Below are positions 1 through 60,973 of a stretch of 64,000 nt of DNA, piece after piece; within the stretch, counting starts at the first letter, position 1, and each line of letters begins with the position of its first letter. The notes below the pieces were generated by a model. It saw only the letters and a list, made by a program, of their open reading frames with translations, ran no database searches and was not told the DNA's origin. The translations under genes were made by a program, and so were the position numbers. Origin of the DNA: an uncultured Gammaproteobacteria bacterium (lineage in GTDB: Bacteria; Pseudomonadota; Gammaproteobacteria; Eutrophobiales; Eutrophobiaceae); the NCBI GenBank assembly GCA_943788815.1, contig CALSRS010000002.1, positions 121,062 through 185,061 on the forward strand, given 5' to 3'.

Positions 1-248
1 AAGCGCAGCGCAGCTATCCTGCCAATATTGGCTTCATCTGGTGATGGCATCACACATCCGAGGATGACTTCATCCAGTTCCGCAGGTTCAAAAGATTGGC
101 GGGCGAGTAAAGGTCTACCGGCATTAACTGCAAGGTCAGATGCCGTAAATGGTCCGGGGACACCCGTGGCCCTTAAAAAAGGCGTGCGGCTGCCGTCTAC
201 AATATAAACATACTTTTGTGATGCTGATTTTCGGGTTTTTTCTACCAT
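1..248 (-). CDS. Thiolase (acetyl-CoA C-acetyltransferase), N-terminal part only
   Basis: This is the first 82 codons of a minus-strand gene that runs off the left edge. The ATG lies at 246-248. After a short basic leader the translation contains VDGSRTPF and then a segment ending in VILGCVMPSPDEANIGR. Both match the N-terminal domain of thiolases of the FadI/FadA/AtoB superfamily, which cleave or form acetoacetyl- and 3-ketoacyl-CoA. The active-site cysteine that accepts the acyl group would lie just beyond the visible part, so the subtype (degradative beta-oxidation or biosynthetic) cannot be decided. The peptide transporter genes downstream on the same strand are separated by 54 bp and are functionally unrelated. 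Confidence 0.8.
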   Translation of the reverse strand, partial: MVEKTRKSASQKYVYIVDGSRTPFLRATGVPGPFTASDLAVNAGRPLLARQSFEPAELDEVILGCVMPSPDEANIGRIAALR

Positions 249-302
249 ATGCTACAAAATCATATCAGGTAATATAATAAATTACGCTGTTTTAGGTAAT
301 TG

Positions 303-1292
303 TTAATTAATAAAGTTTTCTTTTAAATGACAAGACACTAACCAGTTTGGATTGCTATTAGTGGTAGTTAGTTCAGGTCTTTGTTTTGTGCATATTTGTT
401 CAGCATAAGGGCAACGGGCATGAAAATGACATCCATCTGGTGGATTAATGGGGGAAGGCACTTCCCCTGTTAAAACATCATGTACCTTCTTTCTCTCCGG
501 ATCGGGGACAGGAATAGAGGATAATAATGCCCGGGTATAGGGATGCACGGGATTCTTATAAAGCGATTCTGCGTCATTCATTTCAACAATTTTACCCAGA
601 TACATAACCGCGATCCTGTCAGAAACATGCTTTACCACTGCCAGATCATGGGCGATAAACAGTAATGTTAAATCCATTTCTCGTTGCAGATCTAACAAGA
701 GGTTTAATATCTGTGACTGTATTGAAACATCCAGTGCTGACACCGGTTCGTCACAAATCAATAATTTTGGTTTTAAGGCAATAGCACGTGCAATACCAAT
801 CCGTTGCCGTTGCCCCCCTGAAAACTCATGGGGAAAACGATTTACTGAATCTGATTGTAAGCCGACCTTGTCTAGTAAGTCGGTTACCCATTTACGACGC
901 TCTGCGCGTGTTCCTTTCCCATGAATAACAAAGGGTTCTTCGAGTATTGTCCCCACAGTATGTCTGGAGTTAAGAGATTCCATGGGGTCCTGGAATATGA
1001 TCTGCATATCCTGACGTATTTCTCGGAGATCTGGTTTAGACATGTTTATGATGTCCTTGCCATCAAACTCAATCGCACCTGCTGTGGGTTCATATAATCG
1101 TAATATCGCCTTGGCCACGGTACTTTTACCGCAACCAGACTCCCCAACAATACCCAGTGTCTCGCCACGGTTAATTTCAAATGAAACACCATCAACTGCA
1201 TAGTTGTTCGCGATCTGGCGGAACAACACACCACCGCGAATTGGATAATGCATCTTTAGATCATCGACCTTTAGCAAAACATCCTGGCTCAC
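303..1292 (-). CDS. Oligopeptide ABC transporter ATP-binding protein, OppF type
   Basis: A cytoplasmic ATPase subunit that powers peptide import. It has Walker [10 protein letters not shown] at about residues 50-58, the signature FSGGQ at about 157-161, Walker B LLICDE at about 177-182 and a switch histidine in the following IAHD. Its C-terminus is the oligo_HPY extension with a Cys cluster (C-H-F-H-A-R-C-P) typical of OppD/DppD/OppF proteins. The 329-residue length is normal. The ATG overlaps the stop of the OppD-type gene by 4 bp, so the two ATPases are translationally coupled and probably form a heterodimer. It is the last gene of the minus-strand peptide transporter operon. Confidence 0.92.
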   Translation of the reverse strand: MSQDVLLKVDDLKMHYPIRGGVLFRQIANNYAVDGVSFEINRGETLGIVGESGCGKSTVAKAILRLYEPTAGAIEFDGKDIINMSKPDLREIRQDMQIIFQDPMESLNSRHTVGTILEEPFVIHGKGTRAERRKWVTDLLDKVGLQSDSVNRFPHEFSGGQRQRIGIARAIALKPKLLICDEPVSALDVSIQSQILNLLLDLQREMDLTLLFIAHDLAVVKHVSDRIAVMYLGKIVEMNDAESLYKNPVHPYTRALLSSIPVPDPERKKVHDVLTGEVPSPINPPDGCHFHARCPYAEQICTKQRPELTTTNSNPNWLVSCHLKENFIN

Positions 1293-48405: not shown

Positions 48406-50025
48406 CTAATCGTTACACAAGGTAATGATGTCTGCAGATAATTCACTTGCTATTTCTTCAGTAAATTTATTTGATTTCAAGATTACACAGGCTGCCTGCA
48501 TGTTGTCTTGCGCAAGATATAATTTGGTCAAATTAAGATAAGGACCTGAAAAACCAGGGTCACCTTCAATCGCAATATGAAATTTTTCTTCAGCAGCATC
48601 TAATTCACCTACCTCTGCAAGCAATATTCCCAGATTATTATTAGCTCGTGCATGGAAAGGCTCTAGCTGTATTGTTTTTTCATAATAAAATTTAGCTTCA
48701 TTAGTTTCACCAGAACGTTCGAGGATATTCGCAAGATTATAATATGCCGCGGTGTATAAAGGATTTTTGTTAATCGCGGCTTTATTTTCAAAGATCGCAT
48801 CTTCCTTCCTCCCCAGACTATCTAATGCAATAGCTAAATTAAAATTGGGAAACGCATCAGTCGGGTTGAGAGTCATGGCAATTTTGTAATGAAATATTGC
48901 CATTTGGATATTCCCCTGCTTATTAAATGCAATTCCCAGATTATTGTGCGCATTGGAATACGCCGGGTTAATCGAAAGTGCTTGTTGATAATATTCAATG
49001 GCCTCACCTATTTTCCCCGAGTCTGTCTTAATGTTGCCTAAGTTATAAAATGCTCGGTAACTGGATTGATTCTTACTAGCCACATCCATCCAAAGAGTTT
49101 CCTCACTGGCCCAGGTTTGATTTCGAACAATGGTGCCAACGGCAAGTGAAATTACCAGCACTATACTAATAACTCTCGGTAATATTTTATTCTGATAAAG
49201 CACCTCATTTAGAACATAACTTAACAGTAGACTCAAGCCGACCATGGGAAGATAAAGCCGATGCTCAAATATTATTTCAAGACCAATAAATGACGACTCT
49301 ATTAATAAATGCAAAAAGAACCAGAAAATACAAAAAGTTACTATTTTGTTTTTATTCACCATTCTAATTGCAAAAAATAATGCACTTATTATAAGCATCA
49401 AGCTGAGTATGGTAGTAACAGGCTGAAATAAAGATTGGGAGATTTCAAATTCATGAATTAGATTTAACCTTGAAGGCAATGGAAATATAACCAGACTGAC
49501 ATAAAAAACAACCACCCTTAACTCTGTTAACAACCTTTCACCAAGAGAAAAGTTTCTATAAATGTAATCAACTAAAATCCGATCAACAGGATTCTCTCCA
49601 AGAAAAACTAATGCCACTAAAATACTTACACACACAAGCAGAAGAACCTTACTAAGGTTTGTTCTAGTAAATTGCTTAAAAGATTGATTAAATATTAGCC
49701 ATTCCGACATAATGATAGTAACTGGCAATATTGCAGCAATTTCTTTGCTTGATATAGCAAATACAAATCCCGCCAATGAAATCAAGTAACATATATAGCT
49801 TTGCGATTTGTTGTTGTTCACTCTTCCATACAAATACGCCAACAATGCCATTAAATAAAACATGGTTGCAAGACTATTCATTCTCTGCACAACATAGGTA
49901 ACAGACTGAATTTGGACAGGGTGAGCTACAAAAATACAAGCAGCAATTATTGATATAAAATGTACTCTATAAACCTTAAGCTCTTCACCAGTATGGTTTG
50001 ATTTTTTGCCAAGATGACATAACAA
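48406..50025 (-). CDS. TMTC-like membrane protein with C-terminal TPRs, main part (gene interrupted by frameshift)
   Basis: About 540 residues. The N-terminal 300 contain about nine hydrophobic helices; the C-terminal part from about residue 310 is a chain of TPR repeats (for example YNLGNIKTDSGKIGEAIEYYQQAL). This matches TMTC/O-mannosyltransferase-like TPR proteins. The first membrane segments and the acidic loop motif FDDIPN are encoded in another frame at 49947-50360. The two frames overlap and switch at a run of eight T (minus strand) at 50024-50031; one more T would join them into a single protein of about 650 aa. Confidence 0.8.
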   Translation of the reverse strand: MLCHLGKKSNHTGEELKVYRVHFISIIAACIFVAHPVQIQSVTYVVQRMNSLATMFYLMALLAYLYGRVNNNKSQSYICYLISLAGFVFAISSKEIAAILPVTIIMSEWLIFNQSFKQFTRTNLSKVLLLVCVSILVALVFLGENPVDRILVDYIYRNFSLGERLLTELRVVVFYVSLVIFPLPSRLNLIHEFEISQSLFQPVTTILSLMLIISALFFAIRMVNKNKIVTFCIFWFFLHLLIESSFIGLEIIFEHRLYLPMVGLSLLLSYVLNEVLYQNKILPRVISIVLVISLAVGTIVRNQTWASEETLWMDVASKNQSSYRAFYNLGNIKTDSGKIGEAIEYYQQALSINPAYSNAHNNLGIAFNKQGNIQMAIFHYKIAMTLNPTDAFPNFNLAIALDSLGRKEDAIFENKAAINKNPLYTAAYYNLANILERSGETNEAKFYYEKTIQLEPFHARANNNLGILLAEVGELDAAEEKFHIAIEGDPGFSGPYLNLTKLYLAQDNMQAACVILKSNKFTEEIASELSADIITLCND

Positions 50026-50360
50026 AAAAAAGCTAACAAATAAACTAATACTCCATTAACAGCATGGATAAATATATTCATCAGGTGATACCCGGTCACA
50101 TCCAGATTTCCAAATTCATGATTAAGCGCAAAACTAATATTGGCCAGAGGACGACTTGGCATCAAACTACCAAATCCGGCATTTCTAAGGTTTTCTAAAT
50201 TCAATACATTAACGTGTATGGCTTTGTTCTCGACTATATTGGGAATATCATCGAATACAAATGGAACATTCAGTGTGTTCGCATAGCAAATTACAGTTAA
50301 TACTATTAGTATAAACACAGGGAATAAATGGACAGATAGTTTTGTAGGACAATTACTCAT
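49947..50360 (-). CDS. N-terminal part of the same TMTC-like protein (before the frameshift)
   Basis: About 137 codons starting at the ATG at 50358-50360; a TTG lies three codons upstream. It has a signal-like first helix, then PFVFDDIPNIVENKAI, the acidic loop motif of GT-C glycosyltransferases such as TMTC and PMT proteins, and a helix at HLMNIFIHAVNGVLVYLLAFF. After that helix the frame continues into non-homologous sequence (CYVILAKNQT...) and stops at 49947. The homologous sequence resumes in the next frame, so on its own this is truncated. Confidence 0.65.
   Translation of the reverse strand: MSNCPTKLSVHLFPVFILIVLTVICYANTLNVPFVFDDIPNIVENKAIHVNVLNLENLRNAGFGSLMPSRPLANISFALNHEFGNLDVTGYHLMNIFIHAVNGVLVYLLAFFCYVILAKNQTILVKSLRFIEYILYQ
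50024..50031 (-). other. Homopolymer run (T8 on the coding strand) where the reading frame breaks
   Basis: Eight T on the minus strand, between GC and GTT. In the upstream frame it is read GCT TTT TTT TGT; adding one T gives GCT TTT TTT TTG TTA TGT CAT, which joins the downstream frame. It may be a true mutation, slippage during transcription or translation, or an assembly or read error. Confidence 0.7.
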
Positions 50361-50491
50361 AATCAGCAATAAAAATTATTTCTTAGCTTTTCCTTTCTAT
50401 TGTATGATTTGCCAGATATTAGTTCCTAATCCTTATTGTAATATCACGTCCTGACTATCCATACCTAATTCAAATGAAATTCTAGACCAGC

Positions 50492-52741: not shown

Positions 52742-53158
52742 ATGAAAAAACAGAAAGGTTTTACCCTGACAGAAATTATGATAGTTGTCACCGTGGTGGG
52801 CATCATTTCCATGATCGCGATTCCATCATACAACAGCTATTCACGTAAGGCCAAAAGGTCTGATGCTCAGCAGTTAATGATGGATATTTCTAGTCGACAG
52901 ACACAGTTTCTGCTAAACGCCCGTCAATATACCGCTAATCCGGGGACTGGCGGCTTGAGTACAACTAAAGATGGCTGGACCTGTGACACTGATAGCTGTG
53001 ATAACAATTTTTATGCTGTTACTATCGCTGTTGATAATAGTGCTACACCTCCAACATTTACAATAACTGGAACCGCAATTAACAGTCAGCTGCTCGATGG
53101 TAACTTAACTTTAACCAGCACCGGCGCAAGGACACTTGCAGGCAATTCCGGTTGGTAA
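52742..53158 (+). CDS. pilE: Type IV pilin-like protein PilE
   Basis: A 138-aa class III prepilin. The short leader MKKQKG ends at the prepilin peptidase (PilD) cleavage site before FTLTEIMIVVTVVGIISMIAIPSY, which holds Phe1 and Glu5 of mature pilin. The C-terminal region has a Cys pair (TCDTDSC). It most resembles PilE of the P. aeruginosa minor-pilin operon or ComE-like pilins. Here it sits first in the operon, before fimT. Its stop is 22 bp before the fimT start. Confidence 0.88.
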   Translation: MKKQKGFTLTEIMIVVTVVGIISMIAIPSYNSYSRKAKRSDAQQLMMDISSRQTQFLLNARQYTANPGTGGLSTTKDGWTCDTDSCDNNFYAVTIAVDNSATPPTFTITGTAINSQLLDGNLTLTSTGARTLAGNSGW

Positions 53159-53180
53159 CTGGTTGACGGCACCTATATCC

Positions 53181-53717
53181 ATGTATATCACCCAAGATAA
53201 AAAATTTAGTCGCGACCCGTATCAGTCAGGCTTTACTCTCATTGAAATCATGCTGGCTATCACCATCGCGGGAATACTTGCAATGATGGCTATTCCTGAA
53301 ATGAATTATGCCATGGATAACTCCAGAGTCAGAACAGCAACATCTGATATACACACGACTTTATTACTAGCCCGAAGTGAGGCCATAAAAAGAAATGGAA
53401 GCATCACGATCAACCGAGGTGGTGCTGCATGGACCGATGGCTGGGAAGTAAAAACCGGAAGTACCATCCTGCCAAATGGAAAACAGGAGGCCATAGGTGG
53501 TGTGGATATCCTCTGCTTTACCAATACTGCAGGATCCACGCCCTGTGGCGCAACACTGACATTTGAACGAACTGGCCGTTCCTCCTCCTATATTGAATTC
53601 AGGATGTACAACAGTACAGATACAAACATTCCTATGCGTTGTGTCAAGGTGAGTCTGAGTGGTCGTCCTGGTTCTAGTGTCGATTCCGACAATAACGCTG
53701 CAGATGGATGTGACTAG
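53181..53717 (+). CDS. fimT: Minor pseudopilin FimT/FimU (GspH-like)
   Basis: About 178 residues from the ATG at 53181. A 16-residue leader ends at QSG before FTLIEIMLAITIAGILAMMAIPE (cleavage before Phe1, Glu5 present). The GspH/FimT C-domain is indicated by DIHTTLLLARSEAIKRNGSITI and the closing VSLSGRPGSSV, a FimT hallmark. The protein is a minor pilin that primes type IV pilus assembly. A longer in-frame reading from 53136 would overlap pilE and bury the leader. Confidence 0.9.
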   Translation: MYITQDKKFSRDPYQSGFTLIEIMLAITIAGILAMMAIPEMNYAMDNSRVRTATSDIHTTLLLARSEAIKRNGSITINRGGAAWTDGWEVKTGSTILPNGKQEAIGGVDILCFTNTAGSTPCGATLTFERTGRSSSYIEFRMYNSTDTNIPMRCVKVSLSGRPGSSVDSDNNAADGCD

Positions 53718-53720
53718 GCT

Positions 53721-54332
53721 ATGCATATACAAAACATAAATAAGAATTCTGGTTTTTCGATGATTGAAGTCCTGGTCACCATGATTATTATTCTTGTGGG
53801 ATTACTTGGCATTGCAGGCTTGCAGATACGTGCCCAGTTAACGGAGATGGAATCCTATCAACGGGCGCAGGCGTTAATTATTATGTCTGATATTACGGAC
53901 AAAATGTATATTAACCGTGAGACCGCAGACTGTTTTGCAATTACGAGCAATACAACATCTGGTACACCCTATCTTGGGACAGCCGGGGCCAACCACATTG
54001 GAACACCGACCTGCACCTCCAGTACTTCTGCCTATAACACCCAGGCAGTCAATACGATGCAAATGATAAATACCCAATTAACTGGTGCCGCAGAAACCTT
54101 TGGAGGAAATAACGTCGGCTCTATGATCGGTGCGCGGGCATGTGTTAGTTATGACAATACTGATTTAATCAATGGCAGACCAGGGACAGGACCATATACG
54201 CTTATCGTCACCTGGCAAGGTTTGGCAGATATTGTGGCACCGACAAACATGAATTGCGGTGTGGGCTTATATGGTAACGAAACAAACCGACGAGCTGTGT
54301 CGACTACAATCCGTTTAGGCGCATTAAATTAA
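53721..54332 (+). CDS. pilV: Minor pilin PilV
   Basis: A 203-aa prepilin: leader ending at NSG, then FSMIEVLVTMIIILVGLLGIAGLQ (Phe1, Glu5), the PilV/GspI-type start. The segment RAQALIIMSDITDKMYINR is characteristic of PilV. Extra cysteines occur in the C-terminal domain (DCFAIT, ARACVSY, NMNCGVG). It starts 3 bp after fimT and forms the tip-priming complex with FimT, PilW, PilX and PilE. Confidence 0.92.
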   Translation: MHIQNINKNSGFSMIEVLVTMIIILVGLLGIAGLQIRAQLTEMESYQRAQALIIMSDITDKMYINRETADCFAITSNTTSGTPYLGTAGANHIGTPTCTSSTSAYNTQAVNTMQMINTQLTGAAETFGGNNVGSMIGARACVSYDNTDLINGRPGTGPYTLIVTWQGLADIVAPTNMNCGVGLYGNETNRRAVSTTIRLGALN

Positions 54333-54333
54333 A

Positions 54334-55509
54334 ATGACCATGAAGATGACATTCAAAAACCAGCTGGGACTCTCTTTAATTGAACTGATGGTTGCCCTTG
54401 GCATTGGATCGGTATTAATGCTTGGCCTTACAACAACTTTTCAGAATTCCAGTAATACACAAAGGGATATGGAACGCACCGGAAGACTCATAGAAAATGG
54501 TCGATATGCTATTGACTTACTCAGCGGTGACCTGCGACACGCGGGATTTTATGGTTATTACTTTGCATCGCTTGCAACACCAGGTGCATTACCTGATCCT
54601 TGCGAAATTGCAGATGTTGCAACTGGAACACCGCCGTTAGCAACTAATAATTTAGCCACGGCAATGGCACTGCCCATACAGGGTTATAATGCCGCCAGTT
54701 TAACCGTAAGGCCCGTGATTTCTGCGACGAGTTGCGTTACCCAGGGGCTGCTTGTAAATGCCAATTTAAAACCCGGTTCCGACATCGTTGTAGTTCGTCG
54801 CGCCAGTACAGACGTGTATACCGGAACAATTGCCAGTGACGACAACGATAAGGTCTATATTCAGGCCAATCCCCGCACTATCAACCTCCTGCTTGCAAAC
54901 ACCGGAAGCAATGTACCAACCGTTGCCGTTGATGGTAGCGCCCCGTTAATGAAATATCCATACGATCCCTCCATTACGACGCCTGCGGATACTTATGAAT
55001 ATTTTGTCCATGTGTATTTTGTCGCACCCTGCAGTTTCGGAACGGGGGCAAATGATATTTGTACTAATTCAGATGACGAAGTGCCCACACTAAAACGGCT
55101 TGAACTTTCAACAAACGGCACCAGTACCAAAATGAAAATCGTACCGCTGGTAGAAGGTGTTGAATATATGAAAGTGGAATACGGAATCGATAATAGCCCA
55201 GCCACGGTCAGCCTGGTTACCGGATTTGCAGGCGATGGTATCCCAGACACCTATACGGCCACGCCCACACTGGCACAATGGGAGCAGGTCGTCTCAGTAC
55301 GAGTCTATACCTTGATTGCCTCTACTCAGGAAACGCCTAATTTTACTGATACCAAACAATATATATTTCCGCTTGCTGCCGGCAATCTTACGATAACGCC
55401 AACCGATGATGCCGGAACAACCAATACCGACGAAACGGGTTTAAAGCGTCACGTCTATTCAACAGAAGTCAGGCCCATGAATCTGGGCGGACGACGGGAG
55501 ATTCCATAA
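54334..55509 (+). CDS. pilW: Minor pilin PilW
   Basis: A 391-residue prepilin, the expected large size for PilW. Leader MTMKMTFKNQLG, then LSLIELMVALGIGSVLMLGLTTTFQ (cleaved class III type with Leu at +1 and Glu5). The N-terminal RTGRLIENGRYAIDLLSGDLRHAGFYG is typical of PilW. The C-terminal domain is variable and rich in Thr/Asn. It starts 1 bp after pilV and overlaps the pilX start by 1 bp. Confidence 0.92.
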   Translation: MTMKMTFKNQLGLSLIELMVALGIGSVLMLGLTTTFQNSSNTQRDMERTGRLIENGRYAIDLLSGDLRHAGFYGYYFASLATPGALPDPCEIADVATGTPPLATNNLATAMALPIQGYNAASLTVRPVISATSCVTQGLLVNANLKPGSDIVVVRRASTDVYTGTIASDDNDKVYIQANPRTINLLLANTGSNVPTVAVDGSAPLMKYPYDPSITTPADTYEYFVHVYFVAPCSFGTGANDICTNSDDEVPTLKRLELSTNGTSTKMKIVPLVEGVEYMKVEYGIDNSPATVSLVTGFAGDGIPDTYTATPTLAQWEQVVSVRVYTLIASTQETPNFTDTKQYIFPLAAGNLTITPTDDAGTTNTDETGLKRHVYSTEVRPMNLGGRREIP

Positions 55510-55955
55510 TGAGGATGATTCGTAAGCAACGCGGTGCAACTCTGTTTGTGGCCCTCATATTCCTGTTAATCATGACCCTGTTTGCTATTACGTCTATTAA
55601 CATGAGTACGGTCAATCTCAGGATTGTGGGGAATATGCAGGCGGTGAAATACATGGATTCCGCGGCTCAAGAAGCCATAGAACAAAAGATCAGTAATAGC
55701 GACAGTTTTGCGTCATCCGTCGGTGCAACCACCGTCAACAGTACGATTAGTGGCACCAACTTTACAGTGAATGTTGCTGCCCCTGACTGTATAGACAGTC
55801 AAGTTGCTGCGGGCTACAGCGCCGTCGTTGAAAATGTTATACCGGAGGACAATACCTGGGAGATTTCCGCCACGGTCACCGATAACGTCACGGGAGCCAC
55901 CTCTACCATTCATCAGGGAGTTGAAATGCGCATGCTCGCAGGAAACTGCGGCTAG
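55509..55955 (+). CDS. pilX: Minor pilin PilX
   Basis: A 148-aa minor pilin. It has the PilX-type N-terminus MRMIRKQRGATLFVALIFLLIMTLFAITSINMS, with a G/A cleavage site; the Glu5 of other pilins is absent, as is normal for PilX/GspK-like subunits. It overlaps pilW by one base. The position between pilW and pilY1 is conserved. Confidence 0.9.
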   Translation: MRMIRKQRGATLFVALIFLLIMTLFAITSINMSTVNLRIVGNMQAVKYMDSAAQEAIEQKISNSDSFASSVGATTVNSTISGTNFTVNVAAPDCIDSQVAAGYSAVVENVIPEDNTWEISATVTDNVTGATSTIHQGVEMRMLAGNCG

Positions 55956-55984
55956 TCCACACAACGTAATCTTTGGAGTTTATT

Positions 55985-58900
55985 ATGTACAATCTGGTTA
56001 ATACATTAAGACAAATCAACATCAGGACCCTGATGATGACCATGAGTATTTGCATGGTAACTGGCATACCCCAGACCTATGCCGACTTTGACCCGGTGAA
56101 CGATGATACTGATATCTTTCTGGCCAACCCAAGTATCATTTCCAACCGGCCCAATGTCCTTCTCTATATTGACAACACCGCCAACTGGAACACGGCGTTT
56201 GCGAATGAGAAAACCGCTCTCGTCAACGTGGTTCAGAATCTGTCAGACGGGTTTAACGTGGGACTAATAACATATCCAGAGACGGGTGGTGGCAATGACA
56301 ATATCGATGGTGCTACCCTGCGATTTGCCGTGCGACAGATGGTGGGTGACAACAAAACTACCCTTGCATCTCTGGTTAACGGTTGGAACGTAAATACTGA
56401 CAAAGGTAATAACTCTACTCTCTCGGAAGGCATGGTAGAGATCTTCCGTTATTTTAACGGCGCGACCTCTTACTCCAGCTTTGGCAAGGAAAAAACTGAC
56501 TATACAAACAATACTTCAGCAGATCCGGGGAATAATTTTAACCATGAGGCCACGGCAGCAGGACTCAGTGATTATGCCCTTGAAGCGACACCGAATTCCA
56601 GTTCCGTATTCAACTCTCCTATTGCCGATGCCTGCCAGAAGAACTTTGTCATTTACCTCAGTAATGGACCGGCCAACGAGAATAGCTCATCGCTCTCCAA
56701 TGCTGAGGCTGAACTAGCGGCGCAGGGTTATGATACCAGCTCCACGATTTCGCTCAGCCGGTCCGGTGCAGAAGGTAGCTGGGCCGACGAGTGGGCACAG
56801 TATATGAACAACGCCGATGTTAATTCTGCTACAGGGACACAGAACGTCACTTTTTACACCGTGGAAGTAGACCCCGGAACGCAAAATTCCGACCTGGACA
56901 TGACGGCGTTAATGAAAAGTGTTGCCTTACACGGAGGGGGGGAATATTTTGAGACCTCCAGCGCTAACGGTGGTCAGGCAATACTTAATGCCCTGAATAC
57001 GATATTTACCGAGATTCAGGCAGTGAACAGTGTATTTGCCTCCACAACCCTGCCCGTCAGTGTTAACGTCCGCGGAACCAACCTCAACCAGGTGTATATC
57101 GGTGTGTTTCGTCCGGATGAAAACAAGGACCCACGCTGGTTTGGGAATCTGAAGATGTACAAGCTGGGGTTTGATAGTGATACCAGCACCCTGTTCCTGG
57201 CGGATGCCGCCGGCACGCCGGCAGAAAATCCTGCAACTGGTTTTATCAATGCCAGCTCCGCCAGTTTCTGGACTGCCAACTCAAGTTTCTGGGGTTATCG
57301 TACTGCCGAGGAAAACGGCACCGGTGGTAATTCTGATTCCCCTGATGGTGATCTCGTAGAAAAAGGTGGGGCCGCCCAAAAAATCCGTGATGCCTATCCC
57401 ACGAACCCCAGTGCCTCGTCCAACAGGACGCTTTATACCTGTACCGGGTCGTGTGCCACGGGGAGTTCCTTGTCCTCGACACCGTTTGAAACCACTAATT
57501 CTGATATCTCCAATGCCAGTCTGGGTCTGGGAACGACCGCTATCTCCTCTTTGACGGGATTTGTTGAGCAGCCTGTCACAGCTATAACGGATGTCTTTGA
57601 TATCACCGCCGCCACCACCGCTGCCGGCGGTGTAGCGGTTACCAGTATCGATTCCGCTGCCGTGGGTCAGACGACCGCCAGCCTGACGTCTATCAATACC
57701 CAGGCCATTACTGCCTTGAACAATAGCCCGGTGGTGCAAACGTTCACAAATTTAAACCGGGCGTCAGGTAACCCCAAAGACCCGGTTATTGCTACGGTGA
57801 ATGGCCATGGCTACAGTGATAACCAGACGGTTTTTATCGCTGGCGTAGTCAGTGGTACAGCGGGGTACAACGGTCAAAAGACGATTGATGTTACCGGCGC
57901 TAACACCTTCAAATATTCCACCGGGACCAGTAATCCGTCACCTAATCCTGATTACAGTAGTGGAACCATTTCCACCACGACCACCATTGTCACAGCCACG
58001 GTGGCAAACCATGGTCTTAATACAAGTGATAGCGTTACCATCACCGGTGTGGTTCCGTCGGCTTTCAATGGCACTTACAATATCAACAAGATCAATGACG
58101 ATACGTTTACTTTTGTCACCTCTTCTGCTCTGGCGCCGGTCACGGACGTCAGTAGTGCTACCGTATCGGCCAGGTCCACTGTTGCCACTGCCACGGCTGC
58201 AAGCCACGGCTTTAGTGTCTCCGACAGTATTATTGTCTCAGGGGCAACAGTAAGCGGTTATAACGGGACCTATACCGTCACTCGCGCAACGACTAATTTG
58301 TTTAGTTTCGTCATACCCGTTTCACAAGCCGACGATAACAGTGGTACAGCCGTGGTCTATGCTGGGACATCCGTTGCAACCGCTACGGCGCCCAGCCATG
58401 GTTTTGCCGACGGGGCCCTGGTGTCCATCTCCGGTGCCAACCCCAGTACCTTAAATGGCACCTATAATATTACTTTTGTTGATGGCAATACATTTTCGTA
58501 CACTACCATCAGCTCTGCTGATGATACTGATGGCGGCATTATGGCGTCAGACGGGACATCCAATCAGGCCACGGTGACGATCCCCGGGCACCCCTTCAGT
58601 GTGGGGGATTTTATTACCGTCACCGGTGTGACACCCGGCGACTATAACGTCAGTAATGAAATGGTCGATACGGTGATCGATGGCAATACGATTACTTACA
58701 CCGTCACTAACACGCCAAGCCCGGCGTCTGATGTGAGTTCGGCGGCTGCAAAATTCAATAGCGCGACGGCTGTGGTGACATTGCCAACACATGGGTATTC
58801 CACCGCCAATCAGATCACCATCGAAGGGGCAACTCCCACGGAATATAATAAATCGGATGTATCAATTACAGTCATTGATACAGACACCTTCAAATATTCC

Positions 58901-60973
58901 ATCTCCAGCTCTCAGGATGCTGATGCCACCGGAACTATTACCGCGAAAATCAAGACTACAACGGCCCAGGCACGGGCAGTGGATCATGGTTTTTCCACCA
59001 GTGATGTCGTCCAGATTGCAGGCGTTTCACCTTCTGCATTTAACGGTTCTACCTTTAGTATCACCAGGGTGGATGACGATAACTTTACCTATACCATTCC
59101 ATCTGCCCAGGGAGATGGCACTGGCACCATGACGGCTTCCAGCGGGTCCGGATCTTCTAGTGCCCGTTCCACCCTGATCAACTGGGTGCGGGGCGATGAC
59201 AATCAGGAAGATGAGAATGCCAATGCCTCGACTACCGACGTCCGTGCCTCCATACACGGCGACGTGCTGCATTCAAGACCGGCAGTGGTCAATTACAACC
59301 GCCATGGCAATGACGATGATGTGTACGTCTATTATGGTAGTAACGATGGTGTCCTTCGTGCCGTTAAAGGTGGCTTTGATCAAAGTGATGCCGCTACCAC
59401 TGCCGCCGAACCGCTTCCTGGTCAAGAGGCCTGGGGGTTTATACCGGAAGAATTCTTCTCAAAATTTCAACGCCTGAGAAACAATGAACCCAATATCGGC
59501 AGTAATAACAAGAAACCTTATTTTATGGATGGCACCATTGGGGTACTGGTAGAAGACAACAGTGGACCTGGTGGTGAGTTTGTCCCCGATGATTTGATCG
59601 ATGTGACGGTGGATGATAACAATAATCCAGATAAGGTCCATCTCTTCATTTCCATGCGCCGTGGCGGACGGTTTATCTATGCCCTGGACGTTAGTGCCCC
59701 CGCTGATCCCAAACTTCTCTGGAAGAAGAGCAGTAGCGACGCGGGTTTTGGCGAACTGGGTTATACCTGGTCTGCCCCTAATGTCTTTAGGGCGGCTGCT
59801 AACAGTGGTGACCCCATGATAATCTTTGGCGCAGGTTATGACCCGGATGTTGAGGACATCGACCCAGCCGAAATTGACGCCCGAACAGCTACCACGGTGA
59901 CCCATACAGGTGGTGCAGTGGAGACCCGTACCATGGGCCGGGGTATCTTTGTTGTTGATGCGGATGATGGTGATATTATCTGGCAAGCCGGTCCCAGCAG
60001 TGTTACACCGGTTGGAAGTCACCCCTATGTGGTGGTCGATGGCATGGACTATGCCATACCTTCAGATGTGGTCGTCATTAGCAACCGTGTCGGATCGGTC
60101 GATAACCGTGCCTATGTAGGAGATACCGGCGGCAACATGTGGCGTATCGACATGGACGACGTCGATCCCGATGAGTGGAAGGTCACCAAGCTAGCATCCA
60201 TAGCCGATGAATCTGGTCTTGCTGATGCTGATCCCGATCCCAGCGGCCTGCGTAAATTTCTGTTTCCCCCTGACGTGGTGTATTCCGATGACGGCTATGA
60301 CGCGGTACTGGTCGGCTCTGGTGACCGTGAACACCCCTTTGATGAGACGGTGGTCAATCGATTCTATATGTTCAAGGATGTCGGCACAGACGCTGATACA
60401 CCTCTCATCGATACGACTGTTGATGATGATGGGGGTATCACTGTACAAATCACTAATGATAGTACCCTGTCTGAATCGGATCTATTTGATGCCACCTCAA
60501 ATTGCATACAGAGTGGAGCTGACTGTTCGGGCTCAGGGGACGAAGCCGATTCGACTACTGCAGCTAGCGCCCTGGCCAGTGCCAATGGCTGGTTCATCAC
60601 ACTAGGGACAGGTGAAAAGGTCGTCGGCAACTCGGTCACCCTGAACAACATTACCTTTTTCAATACCAACCAACCGGAAACGGCAGTGGTCTCCACCGAC
60701 TGTTCCAGCAACCTGGGTGTGGCCCGACAATACAAAGTTTCATTTGATGATGCCACTGCATTTGAAGATCAAAACATCGATGGTAGTACGGATGCTGCAG
60801 ACCGATACACCACGCATGTGGGTGGTGGTTACCTGCCCTCACCTGTGCCAGTAGTGGTGGAGATTGATGGTGAGATCCATGAAGGTGTCATCTCTGGTGT
60901 AGCAGTGGATCAACCACCGGGCTCCGTACTTAACGCCCGCCTGAGAAAGTTTTGGTATAAGGAGATGGATTAG
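55985..60973 (+). CDS. pilY1: Type IV pilus tip adhesin PilY1 with tandem repeat insertion
   Basis: A 1662-residue secreted pilus-tip/biogenesis protein, well above the roughly 1150 aa of P. aeruginosa PilY1. It has a signal peptide (about 1-32), an N-terminal VWA-like domain (PNVLLYIDNTANW near 50, with a degenerate metal-site motif) and then an insertion of seven repeats at about residues 603-1055. The C-terminal PilY1 beta-propeller follows from about 1060 (DVLHSRPAVVNY, GRGIFVVDADDG, YVGDTGGNMWRIDMDD), with an Asp-rich calcium-loop-like stretch. I chose the ATG at 55985, after GGAG; the open frame extends four codons to a TTG. The last gene of the pilus operon. Confidence 0.93.
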   Translation: MYNLVNTLRQINIRTLMMTMSICMVTGIPQTYADFDPVNDDTDIFLANPSIISNRPNVLLYIDNTANWNTAFANEKTALVNVVQNLSDGFNVGLITYPETGGGNDNIDGATLRFAVRQMVGDNKTTLASLVNGWNVNTDKGNNSTLSEGMVEIFRYFNGATSYSSFGKEKTDYTNNTSADPGNNFNHEATAAGLSDYALEATPNSSSVFNSPIADACQKNFVIYLSNGPANENSSSLSNAEAELAAQGYDTSSTISLSRSGAEGSWADEWAQYMNNADVNSATGTQNVTFYTVEVDPGTQNSDLDMTALMKSVALHGGGEYFETSSANGGQAILNALNTIFTEIQAVNSVFASTTLPVSVNVRGTNLNQVYIGVFRPDENKDPRWFGNLKMYKLGFDSDTSTLFLADAAGTPAENPATGFINASSASFWTANSSFWGYRTAEENGTGGNSDSPDGDLVEKGGAAQKIRDAYPTNPSASSNRTLYTCTGSCATGSSLSSTPFETTNSDISNASLGLGTTAISSLTGFVEQPVTAITDVFDITAATTAAGGVAVTSIDSAAVGQTTASLTSINTQAITALNNSPVVQTFTNLNRASGNPKDPVIATVNGHGYSDNQTVFIAGVVSGTAGYNGQKTIDVTGANTFKYSTGTSNPSPNPDYSSGTISTTTTIVTATVANHGLNTSDSVTITGVVPSAFNGTYNINKINDDTFTFVTSSALAPVTDVSSATVSARSTVATATAASHGFSVSDSIIVSGATVSGYNGTYTVTRATTNLFSFVIPVSQADDNSGTAVVYAGTSVATATAPSHGFADGALVSISGANPSTLNGTYNITFVDGNTFSYTTISSADDTDGGIMASDGTSNQATVTIPGHPFSVGDFITVTGVTPGDYNVSNEMVDTVIDGNTITYTVTNTPSPASDVSSAAAKFNSATAVVTLPTHGYSTANQITIEGATPTEYNKSDVSITVIDTDTFKYSISSSQDADATGTITAKIKTTTAQARAVDHGFSTSDVVQIAGVSPSAFNGSTFSITRVDDDNFTYTIPSAQGDGTGTMTASSGSGSSSARSTLINWVRGDDNQEDENANASTTDVRASIHGDVLHSRPAVVNYNRHGNDDDVYVYYGSNDGVLRAVKGGFDQSDAATTAAEPLPGQEAWGFIPEEFFSKFQRLRNNEPNIGSNNKKPYFMDGTIGVLVEDNSGPGGEFVPDDLIDVTVDDNNNPDKVHLFISMRRGGRFIYALDVSAPADPKLLWKKSSSDAGFGELGYTWSAPNVFRAAANSGDPMIIFGAGYDPDVEDIDPAEIDARTATTVTHTGGAVETRTMGRGIFVVDADDGDIIWQAGPSSVTPVGSHPYVVVDGMDYAIPSDVVVISNRVGSVDNRAYVGDTGGNMWRIDMDDVDPDEWKVTKLASIADESGLADADPDPSGLRKFLFPPDVVYSDDGYDAVLVGSGDREHPFDETVVNRFYMFKDVGTDADTPLIDTTVDDDGGITVQITNDSTLSESDLFDATSNCIQSGADCSGSGDEADSTTAASALASANGWFITLGTGEKVVGNSVTLNNITFFNTNQPETAVVSTDCSSNLGVARQYKVSFDDATAFEDQNIDGSTDAADRYTTHVGGGYLPSPVPVVVEIDGEIHEGVISGVAVDQPPGSVLNARLRKFWYKEMD
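57791..59150 (+). repeat. Seven tandem FCCH-like repeats inside pilY1
   Basis: Seven imperfect repeats of about 60-67 residues, each starting with the pattern A-T/V-x-x-x-H-G/P-x-x-x-x-D/N-x-V/I-x-I-x-G and followed by NGTYNI-like and T-F-x-Y/F segments (for example NHGLNTSD, SHGFSVSD, SHGFADGA, GHPFSVGD, THGYSTAN, DHGFSTSD). The layout resembles FCCH-like beta domains repeated in phage tail and surface proteins. DNA-level identity between repeats is low, so the expansion is not recent. Confidence 0.75.

Follow-up and report, generated by a model that had tools for sequence, protein, structure and literature searches.

The 64,000-nucleotide stretch of DNA analysed here (the window) carries on its forward strand a pilY1 gene, the sole PilY1-like match in its own genome (Table 1). 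Its position is that of a PilY1 gene within a minor-pilin cluster: five pilin-like genes lie directly upstream, one of the five exceeding the PilV cut-off (TIGR02523, 68.1 bits against 52.2) and four carrying the TIGR02532 prepilin signal. On the reverse strand at 48406-50369 two overlapping open reading frames in different frames resemble one membrane TPR-repeat protein, possibly split by a frameshift.

The C-terminal domain is recognized as the PilY1 beta-propeller both by sequence (PF05567 T4P_PilY1, 38.9 bits, cut-off 28.1) and by structure (3HX6, Foldseek E 9.1e-15; Z 20.4 over 382 residues). The N-terminal region gives no Pfam VWA match, and phmmer and hmmsearch comparisons with PDB sequences returned nothing for the N-terminal part or for the whole PilY1; the region aligns with relatives that match VWA_2 and on that basis appears to be VWA-like. 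The motif that replaces its MIDAS takes the form DN[TS][AS]NW throughout the PilY1 subfamily of the window, with or without the repeat array described below, and the other PilY1 group found in this bacterial family has DTS[GS]SM at that place. A further observation concerns the other PilY1 type of that family (L034, L035, L038 and L041, with L044 of the same class), in which an insertion of ~600 aa lies within the VWA and consists, by appearance, of about three repeats of ~180 aa; in L035 and L044, the two scanned, this insertion has no Pfam match.

Table 1. Features of the pilY1 locus, in window positions
Feature	Position	Strand	Remarks
Five pilin-like genes directly 5' of pilY1	52742..55955	+	minor-pilin cluster
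pilY1	55985..60973	+	1662 aa; alternative TTG start at 55973
N-terminal VWA-like region, aa 34-520	56084..57544	+	aligned at its start with VWA_2-matching relatives
D-N-T-A-N-W in place of MIDAS DxSxS, aa 63-68	56171..56188	+
Tract of seven beta1-like segments, aa 515-592	57527..57760	+	beta-strand PSSM; AF2 strands; alignment ranges
R1, aa 596-663	57770..57973	+	beta1 from segment 7 directly upstream
R2, aa 664-728	57974..58168	+	putative donor segment 6; model range 60/61..220 aligned to UBA1/UBA6 FCCH
R3, aa 729-792	58169..58360	+	putative donor segment 5; model range 50..286 aligned to endosialidase barrel and S. pombe Uba1
R4, aa 793-856	58361..58552	+	putative donor segment 4, by order
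R5, aa 857-923	58553..58753	+	putative donor segment 3, by order
R6, aa 924-988	58754..58948	+	putative donor segment 2, by order
R7, aa 989-1053	58949..59143	+	putative donor segment 1; most conserved repeat; model range 6..545 aligned to 4P22 FCCH
Beta-propeller, PilY1 C-terminal domain, aa 1058-1662	59156..60970	+

A block of seven repeats inserted into PilY1

Alignment with the relative L013 reveals a single block of ~530 aa (aa ~524-1053) inserted between 'TNSDISNASLGLG' and 'LINWVRG'. In three proteins that lack the insert (L013, L089 and L091) the flanking sequences join within a few residues at that same point, and the insertion at the junction of VWA-like region and propeller is clean. 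An insertion of about 450 residues had been placed here in the initial annotation; its position stands, and its size has to be raised, since the insertion also takes in the ~75 aa ahead of the first repeat. The block belongs neither to the ordinary VWA fold nor to that of the propeller: by alignment it appears to lie outside the VWA-like region, and the 3HX6 propeller match starts at aa ~1099. The repeats diverge faster than the flanking parts: identity to orthologues is 42% for the repeats and 35% for the tract before them, but reaches 62% for the VWA-like part and 67% for the propeller.

Seven tandem repeats of 64-68 aa occupy aa 596-1053 (57770-59143), a range that differs slightly from the 57791-59150 originally given for seven FCCH-like repeats, and their H anchors fall at aa 608, 676, 741, 805, 869, 936 and 1001, spaced by 64-68. 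The BLOSUM62 self-similarity at lags 65 and 64 (+0.22 and +0.15) lies above all 200 shuffles, in which the maximum over lags 40-89 was -0.26 +/- 0.05 and the top value -0.08. Tandem repeats are no longer detectable at the DNA level in the array, which is therefore old. Family membership is clear from curated profiles: E1_FCCH (PF16190, cut-off 29.5) scores 37.0 bits with the whole protein and 49.4 bits with the insert alone, and End_beta_barrel (PF12195, cut-off 35), for which R5 is the best stretch, scores 37.6 bits with the insert alone and 15.4 bits with the whole protein. phrog_9998 matches five stretches (E 5.6e-24). A resemblance to repeats of phage tail proteins, proposed earlier, is borne out by an E1_FCCH search across Pseudomonadota, which finds the module in phage-like tail proteins as well (L102, L105, L112 and L116). 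A tblastn search of a phage collection with the repeats, and with one phage-like module, returned nothing, and a profile of the array gave only weak endosialidase matches among PDB sequences.

The FCCH-type barrel fold of the repeats is well supported by structure prediction. An AF2 model of aa 510-1072 (mean pLDDT 86.5) aligns with the solved FCCH domains of UBA6 and UBA1 (Z 9-10 over 72-75 residues, 1.8-2.2 A), with a Foldseek probability of 1.00 to E1 enzymes, and with the endosialidase barrels of phi92 and K1F/NF (Z 9.6-11.0). The overall shape of the predicted arm is uncertain because of the pTM of 0.50. A closed ring or eighth propeller-like structure, considered as a reason for exactly seven repeats, was set aside on the grounds that individual barrels of the model align with FCCH domains.

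Apparently displaced first strands and a fixed copy number

The canonical FCCH barrel has six strands. In the FCCH modules of phage-like tail proteins, CpaL-like proteins and mouse E1 a beta1 of the KTITGVT type stands ~20 residues before the H-G strand, whereas in the window R2-R7 lack a preceding beta1, the last strand of each repeat running into beta2 of the next. Only R1 has a beta1, and a contiguous six-strand module is thus absent from R2-R7. The repeats of the window are a module class with displaced beta1 and not canonical members of E1_FCCH, the topology differing and the fold being the same.

The missing strands seem to be supplied by the tract before R1, a feature absent from the initial annotation, which is predicted as short strands with good pLDDT in both AF2 runs. 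Seven beta1-like segments are found there at about aa 518-525, 529-536, 538-545, 550-557, 562-569, 573-580 and 585-592. A beta1 PSSM built from phage and CpaL-like FCCH modules, with PilY1 excluded, detects 3-7 segments per linker against shuffled means of 0.8-2.1, counts to be read with the limited specificity of a matrix that responds to beta3 (VTITGxxP) too and for which, on single linkers, shuffles sometimes equal the observed number; in the pooled profile only five of the seven segments stand out. The L067 linker yields all seven at a spacing of 9-12 aa (QSVSSLTG, QTITELTD, KSVTSLST, VNVSSLTN, QTISSLTT, KPITSLTN and KTITQLTQ). Structural alignments of R1, R2, R3 and R7 begin at model residues 73, 60/61, 50/51 and 6, which just precede segments 7, 6, 5 and 1. 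The simplest reading of the model is that the tract would act as a strand donor in reverse order, segment 7 pairing with R1 and so on to segment 1 with R7, a pairing taken from the residues at which structural alignments start and stop and from strand counting, and for R4-R6 from order.

Among genomes of the bacterial family of the window 10 of 53 carry the insert; in a sample of the class only 2 of 369 do, namely the window's own genome and one of the same family, and a GTDB scan extends the insert beyond Gammaproteobacteria to Magnetococcales, Betaproteobacteria and one acidobacterial MAG. A tree of the propeller contains a clade of 30 rows (100/99 support) that spans Gammaproteobacteria, Magnetococcales and Betaproteobacteria and whose complete members all have seven repeats, detected or reconstructable; three further loci also have seven. 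Apparent six-copy arrays in L007, L071, L075 and L080 each contain an unmatched stretch of repeat length at the expected place and were read as seven. R2-R7 correspond by position between Gammaproteobacteria and Magnetococcales, the best match being the repeat of the same position in 41-86% of cases against 14% by chance, and R1 shows no such correspondence; with Betaproteobacteria the correspondence is weaker and is strong for R7 only. Two records in this material call for separate remark: pilY1 of the betaproteobacterial L082 is split into two open reading frames inside the insertion, possibly through a frameshift or assembly error, and the MAG records L074 and L080, titled Bordetella parapertussis, group with Betaproteobacteria MAGs, so that their titles resemble misassignments.

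Sister clades, read by eye, appear to show a strand displacement that differs from that of the window and is likewise balanced. In L086, L088, L093, L095 and L099 the second and the fourth barrel have no beta1, and two surplus beta1-like strands lie between array and propeller; the four barrels of L098 have all retained theirs. The spacing of the barrels agrees with these strand assignments, alternating between 52-55 and 72-90 in L086 and L088, and amounting to 82-95 in L098 and 64-68 in the window.

A candidate arm at the pilus tip and its alternatives

The reading that we favour, and consider probable as a whole, is that seven FCCH-type barrels would form an arm protruding from the type IV pilus-tip PilY1 at the junction of VWA-like region and propeller. 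R2-R7 would have lost their own beta1, and seven beta1-like segments would be gathered in the stretch of ~75 residues that precedes R1; having run outward as a strip, the chain would come back as R1 to R7, one segment completing one barrel in reverse order. Such pairing would bring both ends of the insertion to the R7 end, the base of an out-and-back rod, and with both ends there a module of ~530 aa would fit a loop without separating VWA and propeller. A gain or loss of repeats would require the strip to change to match, and the count would therefore be locked at seven. Such an arm would most likely extend sideways at the pilus tip, serving both as spacer and for adhesion and presenting fast-evolving barrel surfaces. 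The narrower proposition of an intramolecular strand-donor zipper, with its reverse order, out-and-back rod, topologically locked count and a second displaced solution in the sister clade, is on balance likely.

The evidence for strand donation bears directly on a plainer arrangement, rather unlikely in our judgement, in which seven five-stranded FCCH-like barrels would be strung out as nothing more than a spacer, behind an independent beta-rich linker of ~75 aa that does not complete them. The repeats give strong family matches without that linker, the model pTM is only 0.50, and the linker has diverged no less than the repeats (35% versus 42% identity), all of which would suit such a string. 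It leaves aside, however, that segments and repeats are equal in number, that linker residues fall within the alignment ranges in the expected reverse order, that canonical FCCH modules have the beta1 that R2-R7 lack, and that the sister clade balances its displaced strands at the opposite end of the array. Donated strands might also serve a mechanical end, tension between a surface-bound VWA and a pilus-bound propeller unzipping the segments barrel by barrel to give a stepwise extensible tether. The fixed copy number and the insert ends, which the proposed topology places in an unzipping geometry, would agree with this force buffer, as would the response to force described for the PilY1 VWA of P. 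aeruginosa (PMC12607857), but direct packing of VWA against propeller might let the load pass around the arm, and we regard the buffer as unlikely.

What the arm might bind raises two further possibilities. By analogy with the endosialidase beta-barrel every barrel might bind sugar, seven of them giving avidity for a polysaccharide; such a glycan-binding array is somewhat unlikely. Endosialidase barrels, in which one of the three polysialic acid sites is located (PMC12632334), are among the best structural matches, and the End_beta_barrel match of the insert alone and the fast divergence of the repeats point the same way. Against this, the conserved repeat positions look like fold positions. 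The same barrel is found in tail tubes and E1 enzymes too, where we know of no case of its acting as a lectin. The initial annotation had suggested that the repeat insertion could diversify binding and that repeat number be compared across strains and relatives, a proposal that can be taken to mean an array that expands and contracts. More distant relatives do have detected counts of 3-6, and some have none, but throughout the clade of the window the count is seven, with repeats in register between Gammaproteobacteria and Magnetococcales, which contradicts the proposal at clade level and makes it highly improbable; diversification of the repeats by substitution is possible. The favoured reading of a strand-donated arm would show concretely how a large insertion in the PilY1 tip is built and would explain by topology why a repeat array keeps an exact copy number. 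Variable copy number is usual in the repeat arrays of adhesins.

Relation to known pilus, phage and E1 proteins

Published work describes PilY1 tips that differ in their N-terminal domains and in insertions (PMC13190605, PMC10374093), and no paper naming both PilY1 and FCCH was found in the literature. The window protein resembles the P. aeruginosa PilY1/PilC tip of type IVa pili (3HX6) in its propeller, minor-pilin cluster and N-terminal VWA-like part, and differs from it in the ~530-aa FCCH insertion and in the DNTANW that replaces the MIDAS motif. The VWA "finger" variants of Acinetobacter ComC are, like the array, lineage-specific insertions that alter the PilY1 tip, but the finger is of ~100 aa, lies inside the VWA and has no barrel array (PMC10374093).

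With the E1_FCCH of ubiquitin-activating enzymes the repeats share barrel fold and sequence family, although the window has seven tandem copies, six of them with displaced beta1, in an extracellular pilus protein with no link to ubiquitin. The phage endosialidase beta-barrel has the same fold (Z reaching 11.0), and its profile matches the sequence of the insert, taken alone, over cut-off; unlike the endosialidase and tail modules, the array of the window is long, fixed in copy number and provided with a shared strand tract, and glycan binding by it is only putative.

The E1_FCCH search across Pseudomonadota also found the module in CpaL/TadG-like proteins with a Tad motif and VWA (L103, L106 and L107, also L108, L110, L113, L114, L124 and L125), in which one or two E1_FCCH barrels lie in the VWA after DxTxS; a Caulobacter vibrioides control genome likewise exceeds the E1_FCCH cut-off. 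CpaL has been described with two six-stranded beta-barrels at residues 204-384, inside the vWA domain and with no strong Dali match (PMC12607857), and from this published description the barrels of C. crescentus CpaL are probably FCCH modules. One barrel module, which phage tails have as well, would connect the tip VWA proteins of type IVa pili (PilY1) with those of Tad pili (CpaL/TadG), two different pilus classes. The CpaL/TadG-like Tad-pilus proteins (L103, L106 and L107; PMC12607857) and the PilY1 of the window are both pilus proteins that combine a VWA with FCCH barrels; unlike the latter, the former belong to another pilus class without a propeller, and their one or two barrels lie inside the VWA, each with a beta1-like strand of its own.
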